A stretch of DNA of 52,007 nucleotides. Origin: Acidobacteriota bacterium (GTDB lineage Bacteria > Acidobacteriota > Terriglobia > UBA7540). The stretch spans positions 1 to 52,007 of the forward strand of contig CADDZE010000027.1 in NCBI GenBank assembly GCA_902812465.1, given 5' to 3'. The notes below the pieces were generated by a model, which saw only the letters and a list, made by a program, of their open reading frames with translations, did not search any database and was not told the DNA's origin. A program made the translations under genes and the position numbers. Below are positions 9,882 to 52,007 of the stretch, in pieces. Every line of letters starts with the position of its first letter. Position 1 is the stretch's first letter.

Positions 9882-9912
9882 GCATTTAGTCTATCGATTC
9901 GGCAAAAACCGA
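9882..9912 (-). repeat. Possible copy F of the recurring intergenic element
   Basis: On the minus strand this reads CGGTTTTTGCCGAATCGA, close to CCGGTTTTTGCCAAAACGA in the copy at 19443-19482. It lies 40-70 bases upstream of the debranching-enzyme start and points toward that gene. Only the first half matches. The rest of 9843-10117 holds no gene I can support. Confidence 0.3.
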
Positions 9913-17456: not shown

Positions 17457-19046
17457 TTAATAACCCGCTGGAAAGAGTTGATTTACGCGCTCGTCGGCAT
17501 GGACGCCTGCCGCTGCCGCTCTTCGAGCCTGTTGAGCTTGTAATTCGTACACCGCCTTGTTCGCCGCCTGAAGGTAGGACCGGGCGGCAGCCTCGACCAC
17601 GTTGTGGCTGCTCGCCTGGCCGCTGAATTCGCGGCCCTCAAAGCGCGCCCGGACCACCACCTCGGCCACTCCATCCGTCCCGGAACCCACCGTGTGCACA
17701 GAGAAATCAACGATTGTTCCTGGGATGCCGATGATGCGGTCAATCGCGCGGAAAGCGGCGTCGCAGGGTCCTTGGGCGGTGGCGGAATCGTGGTAGACCT
17801 GGCCATCGCGCTCGAGCTCGATGGTAGCGGTGGAAGGACCTTCGGTCGACGCGACGGTCTGGAAGGAGCGCAGGCTGTAGGTTTCCGGCAGGTGATCGAA
17901 GCCTTCGCGCACGATCGCGATCAGGTCCTCGTCGTAAACCTGCTTTTTCCGGTCAGCTAAACGGCAAAACTGCTGGTAGGCGCGATCCAGTTCCGGCTTG
18001 CTGAGACTATAGCCGAGTTCCTCGAACCGCTTGGCTAGCGCGTGCCGGCCCGAGTGCTTGCCTAGCACAATTTCATTCGAAGACATTCCCACCGTCTGCG
18101 GAGTGATAATCTCGTAAGTGATGGCATTCTTCAGGACGCCATCCTGGTGGATGCCCGCTTCGTGGGCAAACGCGTTGCGTCCCACGATGGCTTTGTTCCG
18201 CTGCACTTCCACGCCGGTGAGGCGCGTGAGGAGCTGGCTCGACGCATACAGCTCTTCGGTACGAATTTCGGTGTAGACCGGCAAGGCGTCGCGACGGACG
18301 TAGATGGCCATCACGACCTCTTCCAGCGCCGCGTTGCCCGCGCGCTCACCAATGCCGTTGATGGTGCACTCCACTTGCCGGGCCCCGCCCCGTATGCCGG
18401 CCAGCGTATTAGCCACCGCCAGCCCCAGGTCGTTGTGGGTGTGGGTGCTGAGCATCACACGGTCCATGCCAGGCACTTTGGCCTTCACGTCGGCAAACAT
18501 CTGTTCGTATTCGGGCTCCAGGCAATAACCAACTGTGTCCGGCAGATTTAGCACAGTGGCGCCAGCCTCGACCGCAGCATGGCAGCACTCGATGAGGTAG
18601 GCGCGATCGGTGCGGCCCGCATCCTCGGGGGAAAACTCGACGTCCGCGCAGTAAGACTTGGCATAGCCCACCGCCCAACTAATCTGCTTCAGCACTTCCT
18701 CACGCGTCTTGCGCAGCTTGTAACGCAGGTGGACGTCCGAGGTGGCGAGAAAGGTATGAATGCGTGGACGCGCGGCGCCCTTCAGGGCTTGCCACGCGCG
18801 GTCGATGTCAAGCTGGCTGGCGCGAGCGAGGGCCGCGATTACGGGGCGGCGGATTTCCGCCGCGATCGCTTGCACTGCTTCGAAGTCGCCCTGGGAAGCA
18901 ACAGGGAAACCGGCTTCAAGGATGTCGACACCCAGGCGGTCAAGCTGGCGAGCCATCTCGAGCTTCTCCTCGAGATTCATGCTGCAGCCGGGGGACTGCT
19001 CGCCGTCGCGCAACGTAGTGTCAAAAATGTAAACCTTTTCTGGCAT
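17457..19046 (-). CDS. leuA: 2-isopropylmalate synthase
   Basis: Condenses acetyl-CoA and 2-ketoisovalerate in the first committed step of leucine synthesis. The 529-residue protein has [17 protein letters not shown] (R13 and D14 catalytic), the metal-binding [14 protein letters not shown] and the [15 protein letters not shown] signature. The C-terminal LeuA regulatory domain (about 380-510), through which leucine usually inhibits the enzyme, is present, ending in the segment [20 protein letters not shown]. It is a full-length bacterial-type LeuA. ATG 19046 follows ACGGAG. Upstream lies a 700-base spacer with repeats, one of which points into this gene. Confidence 0.95.
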
Positions 19047-19252
19047 TGTCCACTCCGTTTGTTAGCGGCTCTCGGGGTCTGGAGCTCTGATTGTCCTACC
19101 GGTCGGTCGGTCCGGTCAAGTCCCCTCTGCGGTCCTCCTTCCTTGCCAGCAAGCTCCTACGCAGATTTCTGTCCGCGGTTGCTGAGCCGCTTCCACCCCG
19201 GCCCGACCCAGCCGAGTGCGCTTTGAGCGATCCTTGCCGGCGCCTCGGTCCT

Positions 19253-19292
19253 GTGTTTTCAACCGGATTTCCGGTTCGTTTCGTCAAATGCA
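19253..19292 (-). repeat. Copy A of the recurring intergenic element
   Basis: Plus-strand form: TTTTCAA, nine variable bases, then CGGTTCGTTTCGTCAAAT. On the minus strand it reads TTTGACGAAACGAACCGG toward leuA. The variable part makes a perfect inverted repeat AACCGG-AAAT-CCGGTT in this copy. About 32 of 40 positions agree with copy B. Confidence 0.65.
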
Positions 19293-19442
19293 TCTCTCGT
19301 GCACCACCCATGCGCTAGGCACAAGGCTCCTCAGCCGACCGTCCGCCCTGCAGCAGGCACATCGGGCAGCGAAGCCGGCGCTCAGGATGCGCAGGAACAG
19401 GCGAAACCGAGTCTCGCCGGCACCTCCGGAAAGTGTCCTCTC

Positions 19443-19482
19443 GTGTTTTCAATCACATATCCGGTTCGTTTTGGCAAAAACC
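19443..19482 (-). repeat. Copy B of the recurring intergenic element
   Basis: Plus-strand form: TTTTCAA, nine bases, then CGGTTCGTTTTGGCAAAA. It lies exactly 190 bases from copy A and in the same direction, toward leuA. The sequences before both copies also resemble each other (GCCGGC then CCTC), so the repeat unit may be longer than the 40-base core. Confidence 0.65.
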
Positions 19483-19715
19483 GGCTGCGTTTGCGGGCAT
19501 TGAGCGCTGCACCGCTCGCTCAGGTGCGAGCTCGGATAGACTGTTACAAACCGCACTTTGCATACAAAGCGCACCGTGAATAGAAAGCCGAGGGCGCGGT
19601 CTACAGGTGCAGCGGGAGCAGTATAAGGGGCGAAGGCCGGAGTTCAGCCAATCGTCATTTTTGTCGCAAACGCACGCATGGTAACGGCCGGGGAACCTTG
19701 CGATTCCGGGAGTGT

Positions 19716-19740
19716 TAGAATGAAAGCAACTTCTTGCTTT
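19716..19740 (+). promoter_or_regulatory. -10-like TAGAAT followed by an 18-base inverted repeat
   Basis: TAGAAT (19716-19721) is followed by AAAGCAA-CTTC-TTGCTTT (19723-19740), a perfect 7-bp inverted repeat. It would cover the expected transcription start and ends just before the GGAGG ribosome site of the gene at 19754. It could be an operator or a 5'-UTR hairpin. Confidence 0.4.
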
Positions 19741-19753
19741 GCCCGGAGGTCCC

Positions 19754-20164
19754 ATGAGAACGCTCATCGCTTTGGTGGTCTTCCTCGGCGGCTCGACGTG
19801 GACCGCTTCTTCTGCCGCCGCGGGTCCGACTCTTTTTTTGGCTGGCCAGGAACAGCAAAATCCCGCTCCCTCTTTTCCGGCAACGCCGGGCCAGCCCACC
19901 GAGCCGGTGATGATCCGGCCTACCAGGCCACCCAGTGCCGCTCGGTTCCCTGACGAACCGCCACAACCAGAGGCTAGGCTGCAGAGACCACCCTTTAATG
20001 CAGCGAAAGCCCGCCAGCAGGCCCGGGAGCTAGCCGACCTCGCCAGCAAAATTCCCAGCGAGATCGACCAAGTGTCCAAGAATGTCCTGCCGAAGGACTT
20101 GGACGAGCAGCTCAAGCGGATACAGAAGCTCGCCAAGCAGCTGCGGTCGCAGCTCGCGCAATAG
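19754..20164 (+). CDS. Small secreted proline-rich protein with helical C-terminus, unknown function
   Basis: A 136-residue protein with a signal peptide (MRTLIALVVFLGGSTWTASSAAA). A proline-rich low-complexity region follows (about 35-85), then an amphipathic helical tail with coiled-coil character (AKARQQARELADLASKIPSEIDQ ... LKRIQKLAKQLRSQL). ATG 19754 is preceded by GGAGG. I do not recognise the family. The layout (export signal, flexible linker, helical end) suggests a periplasmic protein that binds a partner or oligomerises. It stands alone, convergent with thiL. Confidence 0.65.
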   Translation: MRTLIALVVFLGGSTWTASSAAAGPTLFLAGQEQQNPAPSFPATPGQPTEPVMIRPTRPPSAARFPDEPPQPEARLQRPPFNAAKARQQARELADLASKIPSEIDQVSKNVLPKDLDEQLKRIQKLAKQLRSQLAQ

Positions 20165-20212
20165 GCGCCAGACCTTCGGTGGCAGAGCGAAGCATCTTGC
20201 GGGGCCTTACCC

Positions 20213-21184
20213 TTAAGGCGCGCGGCGCGAGGACGCGCGCGCAAAGTGATCGTAGCCAGCGGCCGCGAGAGGTTTGGCTCGGCCATCGAGGCCTATCAGC
20301 CACCGTTGCTTCTTTAGGGTGATCACTCCGATCTGGGTCAGTGGCACACCCTGGTATTTTGGCGGGATCCGTTTGGCTTGGCGCGACGGAACCGTGAAGA
20401 GCAACTCGTAATCCTCGCCTCCCTCAAGTGCCAGCCGGAGGGCTTCCGTTGGCCGCACCAGAACTCCGGGAAAGGGAATCAGCCGGGCATCGATGGTGGC
20501 GCCTACGCCGCTCGCTTGGCAGAGACGAGCGAGGTCGCTCGCCAGGCCGTCACTTAGGTCGATGGCGGCGGAAGCTAATTTGCGGCGAGAGAGGAAGCGG
20601 CCGAGGGCGCACCGCGGCTCCGGATAGAGATGCTTATGAAGCGCGAGAGCTAGGTTGCGGCCTGGTGGTCTCACGTGCCCGCGTGGAGCCAGGCCTCGTG
20701 GCCGCTGGAGCCAACGCAGCCCCAGGGCCGCCAACCCTAACTGGCCGCTGACAAAGATGGCATCGCCAGGGCGCGCGCCACAACGGCGCAGGGCGTGCCC
20801 GCGCTCCACCTCGCCAGCCGCCACGACATCAATGAACATGCGGGTGCGGGAGACCGCCGTGTCGCCGCCCACCAGAGTAGTCCGGAAACGGCGCGCCAAG
20901 CGAAAGAATCCACGATAGAAGGCCTCGGCCCAGGCGCGGCCGGCGCGAGGCGAGACGGCGAGAGAGAGGAGGGCGAAGCGCGGCGTTCCGCCCATGGCTG
21001 CCACATCGCTCAGGGAACGTGCCAGGGCGCGGTGGCCGGCGCTTTCCGCGGGATGGAGGGCAAAATCGAAGTGGACGCCTTCCAGCAGCAGGTCGGCAGT
21101 GAGCACCAACTCACAGCCGGGCGCCACGCGAACCAGCGACGCGTCGTCGCCTATTCCCAGCGTCACGAGGCCGCGGCCCGGCAC
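20213..21184 (-). CDS. thiL: Thiamine-monophosphate kinase
   Basis: Phosphorylates thiamine monophosphate to the active diphosphate. The 323-residue product has LGIGDDASLV, TADLLLEGVHF, ARSLSDVAAMGGTPRFALLSLA, VGGDTAVS and ALEGGEDYELLFTVP, all ThiL hallmarks with their metal-binding aspartates. The listed start is GTG 21184, but GIGDD then lies at residue 10, unusually close to the end. The frame stays open upstream and reads SEAEWVSWIRQRAVPG, which looks like the normal ThiL N-terminal helix. No ATG, GTG or TTG lies in that extension; CTG 21238 is a candidate start. The gene follows an MgtC-like gene on the same strand. Confidence 0.88.
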   Translation of the reverse strand: MPGRGLVTLGIGDDASLVRVAPGCELVLTADLLLEGVHFDFALHPAESAGHRALARSLSDVAAMGGTPRFALLSLAVSPRAGRAWAEAFYRGFFRLARRFRTTLVGGDTAVSRTRMFIDVVAAGEVERGHALRRCGARPGDAIFVSGQLGLAALGLRWLQRPRGLAPRGHVRPPGRNLALALHKHLYPEPRCALGRFLSRRKLASAAIDLSDGLASDLARLCQASGVGATIDARLIPFPGVLVRPTEALRLALEGGEDYELLFTVPSRQAKRIPPKYQGVPLTQIGVITLKKQRWLIGLDGRAKPLAAAGYDHFARASSRRAP

Positions 21185-21266
21185 CGCGCGCTGGCGGATC
21201 CAGCTTACCCATTCAGCTTCACTTCTCCAACTTCGCAGGCAGGCCTCGCTCCGATCAAGCGAAGAT

Positions 21267-21752
21267 TCAGTGTTGAGCTGGGTTTTGCGGGGCGCCCGGG
21301 GTTCCCTGCTCCCGATCCTGGTCCAGCCTTACCTTGAGGCGCCACAGCGCTTTCAGAGTAATCAGGTTCAAGGCGCTCAAGATCAGTGCGACTTCATAGC
21401 GTCCCATGGCGACGGCGGCGCCGACCACCGCAGTACTCCAGATGCTTGCCGCCGTCGCCGTACCGCGCACGGTTGCGCCGTCTCGGAGAATGGCTCCGCC
21501 TCCCAGGAAGCCGATGCCGGCGATCAGGCCCTGCAAGACCCGCGACTGGGCTGCGGCGTCCAGGGTGGTCACGAGGAGCAGGTAGCCGCAGCTCGCCATG
21601 GCGACGATGGGAAATGTTCGCACGCCGACGCCGTGGGCCTCCCGTTCCCGCTCCCAGCCGACGGGCAGGGTCAGCAGATAGGCTACGAGAATCTTCCCCA
21701 GGCTGATCCAGACCTGGGAGGCATCCAGGCCGGCGATGGCAGCATGGAGCAT
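21267..21752 (-). CDS. MgtC/SapB-family membrane protein
   Basis: A 161-residue inner-membrane protein with four or five hydrophobic segments. Family signatures are LLTLPVGWEREREAHGVGVRTFPIVAMASCGYLL, IAGIGFLGGGAILRDGATVRGTATAASIWSTAVVGAAVAMGRYE and a short charged tail after the last helix. It is the short form without the C-terminal ACT-like domain of Salmonella MgtC. In pathogens MgtC modulates the ATP synthase and Mg2+ or acid adaptation; the role of environmental homologues is unclear. It sits 38 bases downstream of the GH36 gene and upstream of thiL. Confidence 0.85.
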   Translation of the reverse strand: MLHAAIAGLDASQVWISLGKILVAYLLTLPVGWEREREAHGVGVRTFPIVAMASCGYLLLVTTLDAAAQSRVLQGLIAGIGFLGGGAILRDGATVRGTATAASIWSTAVVGAAVAMGRYEVALILSALNLITLKALWRLKVRLDQDREQGTPGAPQNPAQH

Positions 21753-21790
21753 GGTCGGTCGGAGACAAAACTCCGTGGTGCTTCGCGGGG

Positions 21791-24067
21791 CTAATGCGCC
21801 TTCGTCAACACCACCAGGGTGCTATCGTAGTCGCCGCGCAAGCTAAAGTTCAGGCCGTGATGCATCAGGAACGAGCCGCTCATCACTTCCGCTTTCTCCA
21901 CCAAGCGGTCGTCCGTCGTCTTCACCCGGTACTGGGCCTGCTCGTCGAGCCCGCGCAGGAAGATGGTGGGCGCGGGCCGCAGGAATTGCTGCGAATGCAG
22001 AAAGGCGAAGAGCACTACCTGCTGGCCGTCGCGGGCGACGTACTCGTTGGCGGTCAACTCGCCTTCGCGGGGAGAGAAAAGGCGGTAGAGGTCCCCGCTC
22101 TGGACGGTCTCGCGCACGCTCTTGTAGTAAGCCACCATCTGTTTTGCCAGACTAAAATCTTCGTCGGACCACTTGTTCAGATTGGCGCCAATCCCCAGCG
22201 CGCCCTGCATCGCCACCAAAAAGCGGAATTTGAGCGGCGTCGAGCGGCCGTTGAGGTTCGGCACATCCGTGACCCAGCTCGACATGACCTTGGGCGCGTA
22301 GGCGAACGTAAAGCCTTCCTGGATGCGCAGCCGGTCGAAGGCCTCTGTATTGTCGGAGGTCCAGACGACGTTGGCGCGCTCCAGCACCCCCAGGTCCACG
22401 CGCCCTCCTCCGCCCGAGCACGATTCGATCTCCAGCCCCGGGTGTCGGGCCCGCAGCCGGTCCATGATCTCATAGACATGGCGTACGTACTTCACCCACA
22501 CCTCTTTCTGTTCTGCCAGGGGCGCCTCCGGCCAGCCGGGCTCAGACAAGTGGCGGTTCATATCCCACTTGATGTAGCGGATGTTGTTCTCGGAAAGGAT
22601 CTTGTCGAGGGCGCCCAAGATGTATTCCTTCACGTCGTCCCGCGCCATGTTGAGCACCAGCTGGTTGCGCGCCTCGCTGCGCGGGCGCCCCGGGAAGTTA
22701 AGCACCCAGTCAGGGTGGCGGCGGTAGAGGTCGCTGTTGGGGTTCACCATCTCGGGCTCGAACCAGAGGCCAAATTCCATACCCAGTTGGTTGACGTAGC
22801 GGATGAGGGACTGCAGGCCGTGGGGGAACTTCTGGGGATTTACGTACCAGTCGCCCAGGCCGGCGTGGTCATCGTTGCGCTGGCCAAACCAGCCGTCATC
22901 TACCACAAACAGCTCGACGCCGATCCGTGCCGCCTTTTCGGCCAGCGCCTTCTGGCCTTCCTCGCTGACGTTGAACGTGGTCGCTTCCCAGGAGTTGTAA
23001 AGCACTGGGCGGACGTGGGGCCGGTCATGATCCGGCAGAATTTCGTCGCGCTCGAAGCGGTGCATCAGCCGCGAGGCGCCACCGAATCCGCGGGCGCTAT
23101 AGCCTCCGTAATAAGGCGGCGTCTCAAAGGTCTCGCCCGGCTTCAGGAGCCAGGAAAAGTCAAAATCGTTGTAGCCGCCCGTCACTCGCACCTGGTGAGC
23201 CGGCGGTGTATCCTCGATGACTAGCTTCCAGTTTCCGCTCCAGCCAACGGCACCGAACCAGACGCGGCCATGCTCCTCATCGGCCTGGCCGGCGTCGATC
23301 GCAAACCACGGATTGAGCTGGTGGCTGGTGTTGCCGCGGCGGCTCTCGAGTACGATCTTGCCGGGATGGATGGGCGTGCGGGTAAGCTGGGTCTCGCCCG
23401 CCCAGCGTCCCGTCAAGTAGGTCAAGCGATAGCCCTCGCCGGGGGGAGCGTACCACACGCCCGCTTGGACGCTCTCAAGGGTAATGGAGTCCGGAGTCCG
23501 GTTCTCCAGGCGGGCTTGCTTGCGAATGATATCCTCCTTGGGAAACACCCGGTACGTCAGGTCAACGAACAAGTCGTACTGGATGTCCTTGAGACGGATT
23601 ACCAGCGTGTCGTCGCGGATCTCGTGGGACACATACTTTAGCACCAGGTCGCGGACTCCGTTGGCCAGGATGACCTTGAGTGCTGGTTCGTTGTAGTAGC
23701 GACCGCCCCAGCCCGGGTATTCGAGGTTGGTCATCGTCTCGCTCGAATCGAAAGACGCATGCTCCGGAGCGGCATGGAGCGGTGCCAAACCTTCATCGCC
23801 CTCCAGGCGCTCGCCCCAGTAGGCAGCCTGCAGCTCATTTCTTTCGTTCAGGCCCATAACGTAGGAGGTGTGGTCCGTGGTGAGCACCCAAAGTTTCAGG
23901 GCGGGAAGGAAGCGCACCGGCTCCGCTCGAGGGATAGCCTGCTCTGCGTTCAACGCCCTAGTGGCCAGGAACAGCACCCCCATGCAGCCGATGAATCCCC
24001 TCCCGACAGAACGGCCGTACCCAACGCGCTGCCAGCCGCTCCAAACGCGGCAATGATGGAAGCACAT
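21791..24067 (-). CDS. Alpha-galactosidase-type glycoside hydrolase, family GH36
   Basis: A 758-residue retaining glycosidase. An N-terminal beta-supersandwich is followed by a (beta/alpha)8 barrel starting with ELFVVDDGWFGQRNDD. The expected nucleophile is D502 in YIKWDMNR and the acid/base is D572 in WTSDNTEAFDR; SCSGGGGRVDLGVL lies between them. Length matches the long GH36 enzymes active on raffinose-type alpha-galactosides. A basic N-terminus plus a hydrophobic stretch (FIGCMGVLFLATRALNA) predicts export. ATG 24067 is chosen for the AGAGG seven bases upstream; an ATG-free extension to 24091 lacks one. A secreted TPR protein is encoded 199 bases upstream. Confidence 0.9.
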   Translation of the reverse strand: MCFHHCRVWSGWQRVGYGRSVGRGFIGCMGVLFLATRALNAEQAIPRAEPVRFLPALKLWVLTTDHTSYVMGLNERNELQAAYWGERLEGDEGLAPLHAAPEHASFDSSETMTNLEYPGWGGRYYNEPALKVILANGVRDLVLKYVSHEIRDDTLVIRLKDIQYDLFVDLTYRVFPKEDIIRKQARLENRTPDSITLESVQAGVWYAPPGEGYRLTYLTGRWAGETQLTRTPIHPGKIVLESRRGNTSHQLNPWFAIDAGQADEEHGRVWFGAVGWSGNWKLVIEDTPPAHQVRVTGGYNDFDFSWLLKPGETFETPPYYGGYSARGFGGASRLMHRFERDEILPDHDRPHVRPVLYNSWEATTFNVSEEGQKALAEKAARIGVELFVVDDGWFGQRNDDHAGLGDWYVNPQKFPHGLQSLIRYVNQLGMEFGLWFEPEMVNPNSDLYRRHPDWVLNFPGRPRSEARNQLVLNMARDDVKEYILGALDKILSENNIRYIKWDMNRHLSEPGWPEAPLAEQKEVWVKYVRHVYEIMDRLRARHPGLEIESCSGGGGRVDLGVLERANVVWTSDNTEAFDRLRIQEGFTFAYAPKVMSSWVTDVPNLNGRSTPLKFRFLVAMQGALGIGANLNKWSDEDFSLAKQMVAYYKSVRETVQSGDLYRLFSPREGELTANEYVARDGQQVVLFAFLHSQQFLRPAPTIFLRGLDEQAQYRVKTTDDRLVEKAEVMSGSFLMHHGLNFSLRGDYDSTLVVLTKAH

Positions 24068-24266
24068 GCTAGGACCTCTGCAAAGGTTCAAAGCTCCGGG
24101 CCTGCTACCCCTGCGGTCAGGCTCGAGTCATTATTCGAGTGTATTGAAATGGGCGTCAAGCGCGCTGCCTTTGGGGGGAGATGGGAGGAGCAGCCTGAAC
24201 GGAACCGGATCGGCCGCCTTCCCCGCCCAGCCTGCGCCTGCGGCGACGCCGACGAAGCCCCCACCC

Positions 24267-25691
24267 TCAATGCGGTAGTCCACCCGACACACTCTTCATG
24301 GAGTAAACAAACTGCTTGATCTCGAGCCGGCGCTGGTCCACCTCTGCCAAGTGTTGATCGTAGAGCTGCTTGTGGAGCTGAAACTCCTTTTCCGCCAGCT
24401 CCTTCTTTCCCAGGTGAACGTAAGCCTGGCCGAGCCGGAAGTGGGCGTCCGGGAGATTGGGCGAGAGGCGTACGGCTTGCTGATATTCCTGGACGGCTCT
24501 TTCATACTGGTGGCCTGCCGAATAAAGGTTCGCCAACTGGAGATGGGCCTCGGCGTAGGCTGGAGCAAGCTCGATGGCCCTCCTTAGCAGGGATTCGACT
24601 TGGTCCAGTTTCGCGCCCGACAGGTCACTGCGGTTCCCCTTCCAAAGGCTCACCGCGTAATAGAAGAGGGCCTGCGGGTCGCGGGGCCGGAGATCAGCCA
24701 AGCGGCGGAAGCGTTCCACCACCTCGTTGACCAGGCTGGGAGAGAGGTCATAAGCAGCGCTCAGAAAATAGTAAGCGCGCGGGTCAGAGGGATTGAGGTC
24801 GGTAGCTCGCATAAGCGCCTTGACCGCGTCATCGTAGCTGCCGCGCAGGAAGAGCGCTAAGCCGAGTCCCACGGCCAGGCGGGGAGAATTAGGATAACGT
24901 TTAAGCCCTTCGCCGAACACTTCGGCTGCGGGGCCGGCGGTGTGGTGGACGAGGAGTTCGCAGCCCCAATCGAAGAGGTTGGATTCGCTGGGGTCCATGT
25001 GCGCCGCCTTCTCGTACTCGTTGACGGCGGCTACATAATCGCCAGCCTTCTCCTCGATCCCAGCTAGCAGGTTGTGGAGTTCGGCCGTGTCCTGCTGCTT
25101 TACCAGCACTTGAATGAGCCGTCGTGCCTGTTCCAAGCGTCCTTCGTAGTTGTAAGCGAGCGCCAGATCGTACCCGTTGTCGTAAGAGGCTGGGTTGAGC
25201 TTCTCGGCCTTTTCGAGATACGGAATGGCGGCTGGGATGTGCCCCGTCTTCAGGTACAACGAACCCAGGTTGCGATTGGCGTCGAAGTTGTCTGGCTCGA
25301 GCTCGATGACCTTCTGGAATTGCTTTTCGGCGAGTGCCGTCTGGCCCCGCCGCGCTAGGTTCGTGGCTAGGTTGTTACGGGCGGGCCCGGAGTCCGGCCG
25401 CAACCGCACCGCCCGCTCGAAAGGTGCGGTGGCCTTGTCCTCCTTGCCCTCGGCCGAATAAACCAGTCCCAGCAGCTCCTGCACCTCAAAGCTGTCCGGT
25501 AAAACCTTGGCGAGCCCTTCCAGCTCTTGCTCCGCCGCGGCGTATTGCCCCAAGTTGAAATGCGCTAGTGCCGACTGAAACCTGGAATCGAGGGTGCGGC
25601 GGCTTCCACTCGCCTTTTGGCCCGACTGCGGGGGAGACAAGCCGAGCACTAGGAAGGCAGCCAGCAGCGCTACGCCTCGAGGAGCGAACAT
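24267..25691 (-). CDS. Secreted TPR-repeat protein
   Basis: A 474-residue protein with a signal peptide (GVALLAAFLVLGLSPPQSG) and about ten TPR units across nearly the whole length. Typical units are LNPASYDNGYDLALAYNYEGRLEQARRLI and LSPNLPDAHFRLGQAYVHLGKKELAEKEF. It should be a periplasmic or outer-membrane protein-binding scaffold; no enzymatic domain is present. ATG 25691 has GGAAG seven bases before it and a weak TAAGAT -10-like sequence just upstream. It precedes the GH36 gene on the same strand. Copy C of the recurring element lies about 110 bases upstream, pointing toward it. Confidence 0.85.
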   Translation of the reverse strand: MFAPRGVALLAAFLVLGLSPPQSGQKASGSRRTLDSRFQSALAHFNLGQYAAAEQELEGLAKVLPDSFEVQELLGLVYSAEGKEDKATAPFERAVRLRPDSGPARNNLATNLARRGQTALAEKQFQKVIELEPDNFDANRNLGSLYLKTGHIPAAIPYLEKAEKLNPASYDNGYDLALAYNYEGRLEQARRLIQVLVKQQDTAELHNLLAGIEEKAGDYVAAVNEYEKAAHMDPSESNLFDWGCELLVHHTAGPAAEVFGEGLKRYPNSPRLAVGLGLALFLRGSYDDAVKALMRATDLNPSDPRAYYFLSAAYDLSPSLVNEVVERFRRLADLRPRDPQALFYYAVSLWKGNRSDLSGAKLDQVESLLRRAIELAPAYAEAHLQLANLYSAGHQYERAVQEYQQAVRLSPNLPDAHFRLGQAYVHLGKKELAEKEFQLHKQLYDQHLAEVDQRRLEIKQFVYSMKSVSGGLPH

Positions 25692-25803
25692 GCCGCTTCC
25701 ATCTTACCAGACCAGAAAGTGCGAGGCCGCTGACAGCGGTAGGGGGGCGATTCGATGCTCATGTGGGCCCAGGAAGCACGGCGTCAGAAACGCGGGCCTC
25801 GAT

Positions 25804-25837
25804 TTTTCAAGAACCTATACGGTTCGTTTCGTCAAAT
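25804..25837 (-). repeat. Copy C of the recurring intergenic element
   Basis: TTTTCAA, nine bases, then CGGTTCGTTTCGTCAAAT. The right-hand part is identical to copy A over 18 bases. The minus-strand reading points toward the TPR gene starting at 25691. Confidence 0.65.
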
Positions 25838-25889
25838 ATCCTGTTCGCACAGCAGAGCGGCGCGAGCTGGCACACGGCTCAGACAAAGT

Positions 25890-25912
25890 AGACATGTCTG
25901 ACGAGTCAGACA
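25890..25912. promoter_or_regulatory. Two overlapping palindromes, possible operator
   Basis: AGACATGTCT (25890-25899) is a perfect palindrome. It overlaps TGTCTGAC-GA-GTCAGACA (25895-25912), a perfect 8-bp inverted repeat with a two-base centre. Such overlapping symmetry fits a dimeric regulator site (GntR-type sites look similar) better than a terminator. It is about 200 bases upstream of the TPR gene and 145 bases past the sedolisin stop. Confidence 0.45.
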
Positions 25913-25984
25913 CGATGAGTATTTGCAAGGGCGCTCGGCAGGAGTCAGCACCCCCGCCGAGTCTGCGATACGTCACACCGAACA

Positions 25985-47895: not shown

Positions 47896-50800
47896 ATGAC
47901 GGGGATTAGCCGGAGAATCTGCCAGTCAACCGCGTGGGCTCTAGGTCTCATGGTGCTCTGTGCCACTGCCGTTTTCAGCCAAGGTAGCGGCACCATTAAA
48001 GGCATCGTCACCGATCCCACGGGAGCTGTGGTGCCCAACGCCGTGGTGACGGTCACCAACCAGGCGACGGGGGCGAAAGTGACGACGAGGACCACCGGAG
48101 CCGGTCTCTACGAGGTCACCTCGTTGATCCCTGGAATTTACACCGTCGAAATATCGGCGCCCGGGTTTCGCAACTATGCCAATCGCGGCGTCACCTTGAC
48201 GACGGATCAGGTGCTGGGCATCAATGCGACCCTGGAGGTAGGTTCCTCGACGCAGACCGTAACCGTGGAGGCGGCAGCGCCACTGGTGAACACGGAGGAA
48301 GGCCGAATGTCGGCTCTGGTCACCGGCTCCGAGGTGAAGAACCTGCCTCTGAACGGGCGCAATATTTACCAACTGATGCAGCTCGTTCCGGGCGCCGTCA
48401 ATTCGACTTCTGTCGACTTCGAAGCGGGAACGGGCGGTATCCAGACCAACATTAACGGCGCGCGCGCCAACTTCAATGGCTTCCTGTTTGACGGCGTTTC
48501 CAACAAGGGGCTGAGCGGCGGCTCGAACGCGCAACCAGCGCCCGATTTCGTACAGGAATTCCGCATCGAAACCAACAACTTTGACGCCCAGTACTCGAAT
48601 TCGGCCGGCTCCATCACCGATGTCAGCAGCAAGTCCGGCGGCAATGAGTTTCACGGCGACCTTTGGGAATTCTTCCGCAACGACAAGTTGAACGCCCGGA
48701 ACTTCTTTGACGGCGCCACCAAGTCCGAGTGGCGGCTGAACCAATTCGGTGGCACCCTTGGGGGGCCCATCAAGCGGGACAAGCTCTTCTTCTTCGGCGG
48801 TTACGAAGGCGAACGCTTCCGCACCGCGGCGCCCTTCCTGCAGTTCACTGAGAGTCCGGAGTTCCGGAACGCCGTCGAGACCACTAACCCCAATTCCGTG
48901 GCCGCGCTTCTTTACAAGACTTTTCCTGGACCCGCTCCCGTCAGCCAACTCAGCACGGTCGATACGATCGTCAATAACAACGTCAGTGGCGGCGATATCG
49001 GCGCTACGATCGGTGCTCCTTACGCGCTTGGCACCCTGCTGAGTGACGCCTACCTCGGTTACACCGATCCTTGCTTCCTCAGCAGCTTTGTAGGAATCGG
49101 CAGCCCCGCGGGCGTGCCTAGCCTGCCTAATGTGACCTGGGGTAACCCACAAGCGTTTGCGAACGAGGCGGCAAAATTGTTCGGGGTTACACCAGCGGAG
49201 AACGCACAGATTGCGGCCAATATTGCCGCCGGCTGCCCGGGGTCTGGCTTCGTCGCCCCGCCGGTGCAAGCGGGAGCCATTTCGCGTTCCGCGATCATGA
49301 ACGGGTACGTGAACGCGGCCGGCTCCACCCGGGCTAAGGGGGTCTTCTACAACGGCGATCAGTACATCGTCCGCCTGGATTACCAGGGCGAGAAGACCCG
49401 GATGTTCGGCCGCTTCTACTTCCTGCTGCAGAAGAACCCCAACGTCTCGCCCGTCACCGGCATCCGTGGGTTCACCGCTCCGGCTTCGTCCTCCTCCCCG
49501 GGTGCGGCCTATAGCTTTGTCCACTCGTTCACGCCCACGGTGGTGAATACATTTCACGCTGGTTTCACGCGCGGCCAGTCGGCCGTCACGCCCACCAAAT
49601 CGCAGTTTGGTGTGCCCAACATCAGCTTTGACACGGGCGAGCCCAGCTTCGGGGCTTATAACGGCTATCCGCAGTTCTTCAACGAAGATGTCTTTAACTT
49701 TCGCGACATGGTGACCATGGTCAAGGGTACGCACTCCCTCAAAGTGGGAGGCGAGTTCAAGCGCAACTATGAAAACAGCGAGTTTGACGTAGGACGCCCC
49801 AGCTACAGCTTTGCGGACCCGGTCTTTTTCGCCAACGACCTGCCCTACCTGGAGGCAGCGGGGGTAAACCCCGAGCTGACCTCGGGAAAAGCATCGCATA
49901 TCGACACCAACATTCGCGCTTGGCGCAACTATGAGGTGGGATGGTTCGTGCAGGACGATTGGAAGGTGAAGAAGAACCTCACTCTGAACCTGGGACTGCG
50001 CTGGGACTTCTTCAGCCCCCATACGGAGAAGTACCACCACGCCACCCGGTTCGTTTTCGGCCCCGGCAGCAATCCTATAGCCCGGCTCGCCAGTATTAAC
50101 TGCCAAGCGTTCATTGGCTCCAACTGCCTGGCCCCGGCGGGCGACACATTTACCCCGAACGGTGGCTTCACCACCGCACCGTCCCTCTTCCCTGCTCATT
50201 ACAAGAACTTCGCGCCACGCTTCGGCTTCGCCTGGGATCCCTTCGGGAATGGCAAGACTGCGATCCGTGGCGGAGCGGCCATCTCTTATGAAGCCAGCTT
50301 CTACAATGCTCTGTCGAATTCCCGCTGGAACCTTCCGTTCTATGCGTTTAACGAGGCCTGCCCGGTCTTCTGCGGCGTCCCGGGTTTGCCCACTTACGGG
50401 CCCACCAGCGCCAATGGCACTCCAACGGGGGCAGCCCCCACGTTCAGCGGCCCGCCCGATAACGTCGGACAAGGGCCTGCGGGAGCGGGGTTTGCCGGCA
50501 ACATCATGGGATGGCTCTCGGCTAATCCCAACGTCGCCTCGCTCACGGGTATTCCGAGCCCCACCTATCAGCTTCCCTACATCGAGCAATTCTTCTTCGG
50601 CATTCAGCGTGAGTTGACTCCCTCCACCGTGCTGGAGATTAATGGCGTGGGCACGCTCTCGCGCCACCTGTTCTGGGCTGAGGACCCGAACCGCGTGGTG
50701 GGCGGAAAACAGCGGCCCGCCGGTACAGTCTTCAATCCTTGCACTGGCACGTATGCCAGCGGCTCGCCTCCGCAAGTCAATCCGTGCTTTGGCCATCTTC

Positions 50801-51654
50801 GCACCTGGGAGACGAGTGTCAACTCCAGCTACGAAGGCCTTCAGGTTAGCCTTACGCGCAAGTTCAGCCGGGGGCTGGCCTTCACGACGAACTACACTTA
50901 CAGCCATTCGATTGACTTGCGCTCCACTTGGCATGGCTTGAGCAGTGGGGGCTCGGCAACGGACTCCAACGCCGTGGGCGAGTCGGGCTATTCGTATGAC
51001 CCGAACGCCCTCTATCTGGAACGGGCAAGTTCCCTGTTTGATATCCGCCACCGCGTGGTGGGCGATGTCCAATGGGAGTTTCCATGGCTCAAATCCCAAC
51101 GGGGTTTGACCGGACACATACTGGGAGGCTGGACAATTAACACCGCCGTCAGCCTCCAGACTGGTTTCCCGTTCACGGTTGGCGCTCGGAAAGACTTCAA
51201 TGGCGACGGTGTTCGGTCCGACCGGCCCAATACACCCAGCTTCGGTAACTTCAAGTACTTCAATTCGACTGATTTCGAGGCGGGCTCCGGCCCCAAGGGA
51301 TTGAGCGTGATGCAAGCTCTGGGCCCCGCCAATCCGAATGCCACTTGCGCTACGGCCAACACAACCGGCTGCATGGGGGTATTCCCCATCCCAGCTCCGG
51401 GTACCGTAGGCAATCTCGGGCGCAACACCTTCCGAGGACCGGGCTTTGCCGAGACGGATATGTCGCTGTTTAAGCACATCCCCATCGGCTCCAGCGAGGC
51501 CCGCTACCTCGAGTTCCGGGCTGAGTTCTTTAATATCTTCAATCGCACCAACCTCAATCCGCCCGTCGCGAATCTCAGCGATGGCAGCTTCGGACTAGCG
51601 ACCAGCGCCGCTGACCCGCGCGAGATTCAGTTCGGGCTGAAGCTCTACTTCTAG
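47896..51654 (+). CDS. Oar-like TonB-dependent outer-membrane receptor 2
   Basis: A 1252-residue receptor. A signal peptide (STAWALGLMVLCATAVFSQ) is followed by a carboxypeptidase-regulatory-like domain (about 27-110, GTIKGIVTDPTGAVVPNAVVTV), a plug (MSALVTGSEVKNLPLNGRNIYQLMQLVPGA ... FDGVSNKGLSGGSNAQPAPDFVQEFRIETNNFDAQYSNSAG) and a very large barrel ending QFGLKLYF. ATG 47896 follows AAAGGAG; an upstream in-frame start at 47869 has none. The ligand is unknown; this family imports polysaccharide fragments, peptides or chelates. A good terminator follows, so it ends its transcript. Confidence 0.9.
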   Translation: MTGISRRICQSTAWALGLMVLCATAVFSQGSGTIKGIVTDPTGAVVPNAVVTVTNQATGAKVTTRTTGAGLYEVTSLIPGIYTVEISAPGFRNYANRGVTLTTDQVLGINATLEVGSSTQTVTVEAAAPLVNTEEGRMSALVTGSEVKNLPLNGRNIYQLMQLVPGAVNSTSVDFEAGTGGIQTNINGARANFNGFLFDGVSNKGLSGGSNAQPAPDFVQEFRIETNNFDAQYSNSAGSITDVSSKSGGNEFHGDLWEFFRNDKLNARNFFDGATKSEWRLNQFGGTLGGPIKRDKLFFFGGYEGERFRTAAPFLQFTESPEFRNAVETTNPNSVAALLYKTFPGPAPVSQLSTVDTIVNNNVSGGDIGATIGAPYALGTLLSDAYLGYTDPCFLSSFVGIGSPAGVPSLPNVTWGNPQAFANEAAKLFGVTPAENAQIAANIAAGCPGSGFVAPPVQAGAISRSAIMNGYVNAAGSTRAKGVFYNGDQYIVRLDYQGEKTRMFGRFYFLLQKNPNVSPVTGIRGFTAPASSSSPGAAYSFVHSFTPTVVNTFHAGFTRGQSAVTPTKSQFGVPNISFDTGEPSFGAYNGYPQFFNEDVFNFRDMVTMVKGTHSLKVGGEFKRNYENSEFDVGRPSYSFADPVFFANDLPYLEAAGVNPELTSGKASHIDTNIRAWRNYEVGWFVQDDWKVKKNLTLNLGLRWDFFSPHTEKYHHATRFVFGPGSNPIARLASINCQAFIGSNCLAPAGDTFTPNGGFTTAPSLFPAHYKNFAPRFGFAWDPFGNGKTAIRGGAAISYEASFYNALSNSRWNLPFYAFNEACPVFCGVPGLPTYGPTSANGTPTGAAPTFSGPPDNVGQGPAGAGFAGNIMGWLSANPNVASLTGIPSPTYQLPYIEQFFFGIQRELTPSTVLEINGVGTLSRHLFWAEDPNRVVGGKQRPAGTVFNPCTGTYASGSPPQVNPCFGHLRTWETSVNSSYEGLQVSLTRKFSRGLAFTTNYTYSHSIDLRSTWHGLSSGGSATDSNAVGESGYSYDPNALYLERASSLFDIRHRVVGDVQWEFPWLKSQRGLTGHILGGWTINTAVSLQTGFPFTVGARKDFNGDGVRSDRPNTPSFGNFKYFNSTDFEAGSGPKGLSVMQALGPANPNATCATANTTGCMGVFPIPAPGTVGNLGRNTFRGPGFAETDMSLFKHIPIGSSEARYLEFRAEFFNIFNRTNLNPPVANLSDGSFGLATSAADPREIQFGLKLYF

Positions 51655-52007
51655 TAGTCACGACTGAGCGCATCGGTGGAGGCCAGGAGCGGTGCTCTTG
51701 GCCTCCGTGGTGCTCTTGTTCTTTCGCGAACCCACCGACCTGCCAAATACACTTCCCGCGCGTCAAACCCAAGCTTGGGCTGGGCTTCCCGGTTAGCCGG
51801 CTTGTCTGCCGCTCCTGTCAGCCATCTGTGCGGACTGCGGCTTTCCATCGTCCTCTTGGAAGCTAACCGCGAAGCCCTCCCTTGCTTGCTCGTGCGTTGT
51901 TTTGGGTTGGTAGCTGTGAATTTCTGTTTTGTGTTTTCTGGCCTCCGGTGGTGGCTAGGGTAGGCGATCTATGTATTTTCAATCACTTGGTGGCTTCGAA
52001 CCTGTCG
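51655..52007. other. Window-end spacer
   Basis: After the terminator no gene is supported. Near 51969-52007 TTTTCAATCAC matches the left part of copy B of the recurring element, but the right part diverges and the window ends. Confidence 0.4.
51678..51706 (+). terminator. Terminator hairpin after TonB receptor 2
   Basis: GGAGGCCA (51678-51685) pairs with TGGCCTCC (51699-51706). Inside it, GAGC (51687-51690) pairs with GCTC (51694-51697), leaving one G-U pair and a 3-base loop: a 13-bp stem 24 bases after the stop. A modest T-rich stretch (CTTGTTCTTT) follows about eight bases later. Confidence 0.65.

Follow-up and report, generated by a model that had tools for sequence, protein, structure and literature searches.

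The 52,007-nucleotide stretch of DNA analysed here (the window) comes from a bacterium of the phylum Acidobacteriota and makes up an entire contig of its 3.9-Mb genome (190 contigs, labelled G000). It carries the same short intergenic sequence in front of more than one gene. This raises the question of whether the sequence is a promoter, another kind of regulatory element or a dispersed repeat. The copies in the window, recovered by both pattern and model searches and referred to below as type A, are listed together with the genes that they precede:

25804..25836, minus strand: type A copy, pointing at the TPR gene
24267..25691, minus strand: TPR-repeat protein, 474 aa (ATG at 25691), downstream of the 25804 copy
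19446..19478, minus strand: type A copy, GTGATT variant, distal of the two before leuA
19256..19288, minus strand: type A copy with a deviant AAATCCGG middle, proximal of the two before leuA
17457..19046, minus strand: leuA, 2-isopropylmalate synthase, 529 aa (TIGR00973, 693 bits, above the cut-off)

With up to three mismatches allowed, a search of the window gives three pattern matches and no more, all of them exact and on the plus strand as the pattern is written; the gene-facing strand of all three is the minus strand. Shuffled windows gave a mean of 0.00 matches. These are the sites at which an earlier note had described a recurring element, its first two starts lying 3 bases early. The weaker relatives that it had placed at 85-126 and 9882-9912 were missed by the pattern search (up to three mismatches) and also, up to E = 10, by a 57-column model run without filtering. 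Of the five examples cited there, the two copies before leuA and the one before the TPR gene are members, whereas those assigned to ispH and the debranching enzyme are not. The complete set is far larger than the window shows. A search of G000 with up to three mismatches returned 77 copies, compared with 0 for the reversed pattern, and the sequence-only 57-column model gave 79 strong matches (E <= 1.6e-6), 77 of which had served to build the model and two of which were new to it. The model score falls from 29.5 to 18 bits after the 79th match. A motif scan of the whole genome, suggested earlier as a way of exposing too few copies, yields 77-79 copies vs 0 in the control.

To place the copies relative to genes we used a codon-usage caller written for this analysis. 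In G000, 76 of the 77 type A copies are intergenic; the single copy called inside a gene (L065) was excluded from the orientation counts. Two of the 76 have no called downstream gene, and for the 74 that do, the gene is co-oriented in 70 cases and opposed in four. The median distance from element to start codon is ~180 bp for the intergenic copies. Sorted by flanking genes, the 76 copies comprise 36 divergent, 29 tandem aligned, 0 tandem opposed and four convergent cases, and seven with one flank uncalled. Of these classes, the tandem one says most about orientation, and no copy runs against a tandem gene pair. The proposal that the element points toward the downstream gene is thus borne out in G000, where we find neither a random orientation nor a location within genes, either of which would have spoken against it.

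Alignment of the G000 copies shows 32 nearly invariant base pairs with weaker conservation from about -12 to +45/+50; outside about -12 to +50 the flanks diverge between copies, apart from a 9-bp period. Because the flanks around the 32-bp element are not conserved, the copies are not recent duplicates. By eye, the element can be read as two imperfect direct half-sites, GTTAATTTGACGAAACGAACCGG and GTTGTTGAAAAATCGAGGTCGG. Most type A copies are preceded by a 9-bp array between -160 and -30. In this interval, GT dinucleotides occur 254 times at a lag of 9 (56 expected) and 196 times at 18 bp (52 expected), and two control regions show no lag-9 excess. The repeating unit approximates ATYGTAWRC, and chains of at least three units number 69 in 76 regions vs one in the downstream control. 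The chain search listed none of its own for the proximal leuA copy (19256..19288); the arrays of the other two window copies are as follows:

25869..25915, minus strand: array of five 9-bp units, CGTGTCTGA CTCGTCAGA CATGTCTAC TTTGTCTGA GCCGTGTGC, upstream of the 25804 copy
19540..19578, minus strand: array of four 9-bp units, ACGGTGCGC TTTGTATGC AAAGTGCGG TTTGTAACA, upstream of the distal leuA copy

The arrays have a common period and mostly no common sequence, and as periodic sites upstream of promoters they look like a putative upstream binding-site array. Type A copies also fall into subfamilies with linked diagnostic positions, one of them marked by a larger conserved upstream stretch; the linked positions may reflect subfamilies alone. 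Taken together, the element is real and abundant, lies upstream of genes, points at them and comes with a 9-bp array. A coding reading (frame KRTGYVVEK) was weighed since several variable positions fall at third codon places, and was rejected because many copies contain stop codons (TAA or TAG after GGA) and the synonymous third positions (offsets 8, 11, 14, 17, 26 and 29) hardly vary.

The element belongs to a wider superfamily. Its last part, GTKRTTGAAAA, recurs in two further G000 families, types B and C, which were reached via weak matches of the type A model. Type B is a tandem of GAATCCCACTATGTTRTTGAAAAT, and type C is GGAACGAAGCCACCAAGTTATTGAAAACACG, for which a genome search with up to two mismatches gave 49 copies, against none in the control. 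Seventeen type B and C loci were passed to the gene caller, which made a call for 16; the downstream gene is co-oriented in 15 and uncalled in one. One type C copy lies in the window:

51976..51996, minus strand: type C core, AAGCCACCAAGTGATTGAAAA, near the contig end (pattern and model search)

Here the element points at the 3' end of the gene at 47950-51654. Distinct versions are also present in related genera (g10; G026; G034, G014 and G027). Of the 37 family genomes, 21 have 7-75 copies of the core GTTRTTGAAAAYA and the other 16 have 0 to 4, compared with three control matches across all 37. In 24 genomes outside the family there are at most three per genome, i.e. the core is not enriched. 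All four type A copies of G014 are on one 100-kb contig, C5 (L031, L036, L039, L042, L162), which may be a misplaced contig from a G000 relative; the G014 type A neighbourhoods show no DNA similarity to the G000 loci compared, apart from the element itself.

Is the type A element itself a promoter? At leuA, the core promoter can be recognised independently:

19090..19119, minus strand: leuA core promoter TTGACC...GACAAT, matching the TTGAC-CCGACCGGTCGG-(A/C)AAT promoter of relatives

This promoter (TTGACCGGACCGACCGACCGGTAGGACAAT at 19119-19090) is located downstream of both element copies, 136 bp from the nearer one. For comparison, 30 family loci were fetched and ten leuA upstream regions read; one is that of the window, another comes from a relative with no more than 69 bp, and the remaining eight are from usable relatives. 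The motif TTGACTT..(C/A)CCGGTYGG(A/C)(A/C)AAT just 5' of leuA is common to six of the eight, is partial in L220 and is reduced to its TTGACTT part in L205. The type A element is absent before leuA in the relatives whose upstream DNA was read. A palindromic CCGACCGGTCGG, likely an operator, is frequent in the spacer of the family leuA promoters (L199-L227). More generally, sigma70-like sites (TTGAC-N16-19-TANNNT) on the element strand number 15 in 74 G000 regions, all between +95 and +258 and 13 of them between +95 and +170. There are none from -300 to +75 in the 74 regions, and the element itself contains no -35/-10 hexamers spaced 16-19 bp apart. The idea that the type A element is itself the core promoter is not supported, and where core promoters are recognisable the elements lie upstream of them. 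The earlier description as a regulatory or promoter element accordingly survives in its first half, through the orientation and intergenic position of the copies, but not in its second, given the separate leuA promoter and the downstream position of the sigma70-like sites.

If the element were the core promoter of an alternative sigma factor, transcription would have a second start and a long leader, and the 9-bp array would be the activator site. This would account for the strict orientation of the element and for the array at a typical activator distance. Moreover, with a downstream sigma70-like site in only 15 of the 74 regions, there is room for another promoter. However, the 32 nearly invariant bases lack a relaxed spacer, unlike a two-box promoter, tandem copies 40-75 bp apart would mean stacked promoters, and the leuA promoter is elsewhere. 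The TTGAC start pointed out in the earlier note is present in most G000 copies, as this explanation would have it, but is lost in the g10 relatives, and the end kept in all families is the opposite one, GTTRTTGAAAA. We therefore regard an alternative-sigma promoter as improbable. A sigma54 (-24/-12) interpretation, weighed by eye, was dropped.

Another reading is a function at the RNA level, as part of a leader or as a multi-copy small RNA possibly resembling 23S rRNA helix 35. In g10 and G026, the module has a TTGAC-type promoter with a palindromic or near-palindromic centre ~95-200 bp upstream of it and directed into it, whereas in G000 no sigma70-like promoter is seen upstream on the element strand. 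The consensus of g10 folds at -4.49 kcal/mol vs -0.2 for column shuffles, and that of G026 (14 copies; a weak fold) at -5.4 vs -0.28 kcal/mol. Pairs are few, however: the g10 fold has seven, with 0 compensatory changes in 42 sequences, and a conserved structure with compensatory changes was found in none of G000, g10 and G026. In addition, 40 G000 regions fold no better than shuffles (mean z -0.22 to 0.05 over five stretches). A search of the window and five g10 loci against Rfam 15 returned two tRNAs only, with no match to the module. The likeness to rRNA consists of CGAACCGG(N3-5)GTTGAAAA in 23S rRNA (L160, L192), in the same order as in the element and in a region which we take to be helix 35. 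The rRNA gap between the two halves is shorter than in the G000 elements, the flanks are unrelated, and the likeness is confined to type A, since types B and C have no CGAACCGG half. Across 396 phylum genomes, a related-pattern scan found outside G000 mostly single matches of a 21-base form, which at the loci checked lies within 23S rRNA, and four further single matches. All in all, we consider it improbable that the module acts as RNA. Conserved non-coding sequence is what it has in common with Rfam families such as the bacterial motifs of PMC2864571, from which it differs in having no Rfam match and no supported conserved structure.

A dispersed, non-autonomous, MITE-like repeat, once or still mobile, might bring regulatory sites with it and persist chiefly where it points at a gene; this would explain several features of the distribution. 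Copy number differs strongly between and within genera. The window's genus is represented by one genome in these comparisons. There is also little overlap between the genes near the 77 G000 copies and those near g10 copies, the one clear homologous downstream pair being two TPR genes (L128 and L067). In addition, copies form subfamilies with linked diagnostic positions, those in g10 and G026 have 200-450 bp in common, and the leuA relatives that were read have no element. Against this, the G000 copies have no common flanks beyond the element, and the 9-bp arrays match in period and mostly not in sequence, one subfamily sharing more. Neither terminal inverted repeats nor target duplications were seen by eye, and 29 aligned vs 0 opposed copies in tandem gene pairs would be unexpected for a functionless repeat. 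We consider a mobile origin of this kind unlikely, albeit worth keeping in mind. Small intergenic or MITE-like repeats of bacteria, a group reviewed in PMC2229807, are likewise short, intergenic, lineage-restricted and present in tens of copies per genome; our element differs in being strictly gene-directed in G000, with unshared flanks and no inverted ends seen, and in being tied to a periodic array upstream of promoters.

The most economical explanation is a putative upstream binding-site module for DNA-binding proteins acting on nearby promoters, to which we give about an even chance of being correct. The 32-bp element would be the predicted site of a sequence-specific DNA-binding protein, and the 9-bp array would bind a second, oligomerising protein. 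Together they may tune, most likely by activation, a sigma70-type promoter ~100-170 bp downstream. Other genera of the family have this core in tandem copies whose spacings increase in steps of roughly one helical turn, which would fit bound proteins that must share one face of the DNA. The unit spacings in three sets are mostly 38-41, 50-52, 59-61 and 72-73 bp, and those in g10 are 54-55, 65-66 and 76 bp, with some longer and a few shorter. A period of 10.8 bp best fits the 30 spacings between 38 and 73 bp in these three sets, and random independent spacings equalled this fit in 0 of 1000 trials. When whole clusters were moved at random, 4% of placements equalled it, making this a weak test. 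Helical phasing of the units in steps of ~10-11 bp is therefore suggested rather than proved.

Several observations count against an upstream binding-site module. A sigma70-like promoter was recognised in only 15 of the 74 regions; the array-to-element distance varies, and some regions have no chain of at least three units; and type C lies between co-oriented genes, where some gaps are short and transcription may run through. In g10 the orientation is looser, with 18 tandem aligned, 6 opposed, 10 divergent and 4 convergent cases among first units with both flanks called, and in a sample from G034, G014 and G027 six of 20 face an opposed gene. Furthermore, no common pathway is evident among the matched target genes. 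Family matches were obtained for 19 distinct proteins among 70 downstream calls, comprising leuA, recN, a RelA/SpoT protein, uvrC, mutS, aroA, glgA, tig, thiC, PhoH, the NADH-oxidoreductase 20-kDa subunit, an ATP-grasp CoA ligase, a DHDPS-family protein, a sigma factor, an rRNA dimethylase, three TPR proteins and a DUF7948 protein.

PhoB boxes, MetJ boxes and MraZ repeats, the tandem-site arrays of activators or repressors, are direct repeats with a fixed period upstream of promoters, and the putative binding-site module resembles them in this. It differs in that its 9-bp period is joined to an unrelated 32-bp element and in having ~80 targets across general metabolism. Nearly invariant 32-bp sites at so many targets are far more conserved than the usual sites of bacterial regulators. 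The related arrays across much of the family suggest a widespread, putative control system. More tentatively, and possible rather than probable in our view, this could be a global site system common to a family of largely uncultured Acidobacteriota, in which one undescribed protein family would read helically phased sites with the GTKRTTGAAAA core and, in the window's genus, would work together with a second protein that reads the 9-bp units. With tens to more than 100 sites per genome, before housekeeping operons and between co-oriented genes, such a system would organise transcription genome-wide and not for one pathway. Among the targets are genes of general metabolism, of repair and of the stringent response. 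If one protein binds all sites, it would be a global regulator in a group whose experimental genetics is almost non-existent. As bait for the putative binding protein, the core is directly usable. A search of the literature on Acidobacteria regulatory motifs, gene-directed intergenic repeats, 9-bp direct-repeat activators and the core sequence found no account of the element in the portions of the sources consulted.

Finally, two further sequences accompany the relatives of the element. The motif CTTGACN5TGGSCTAGYRTGGTAGYCT is conserved upstream of the g10 arrays (L163-L172, g10 loci), with 21 copies in G009, 18 in G023, 11 in G029 and none in G000 or G026. In G026 (L173-L188), most copies have a palindrome such as GATAGCGTAGTACACTACGCTATC over a sigma70-like -10, ~200 bp upstream of the core, which looks like a repressor operator.
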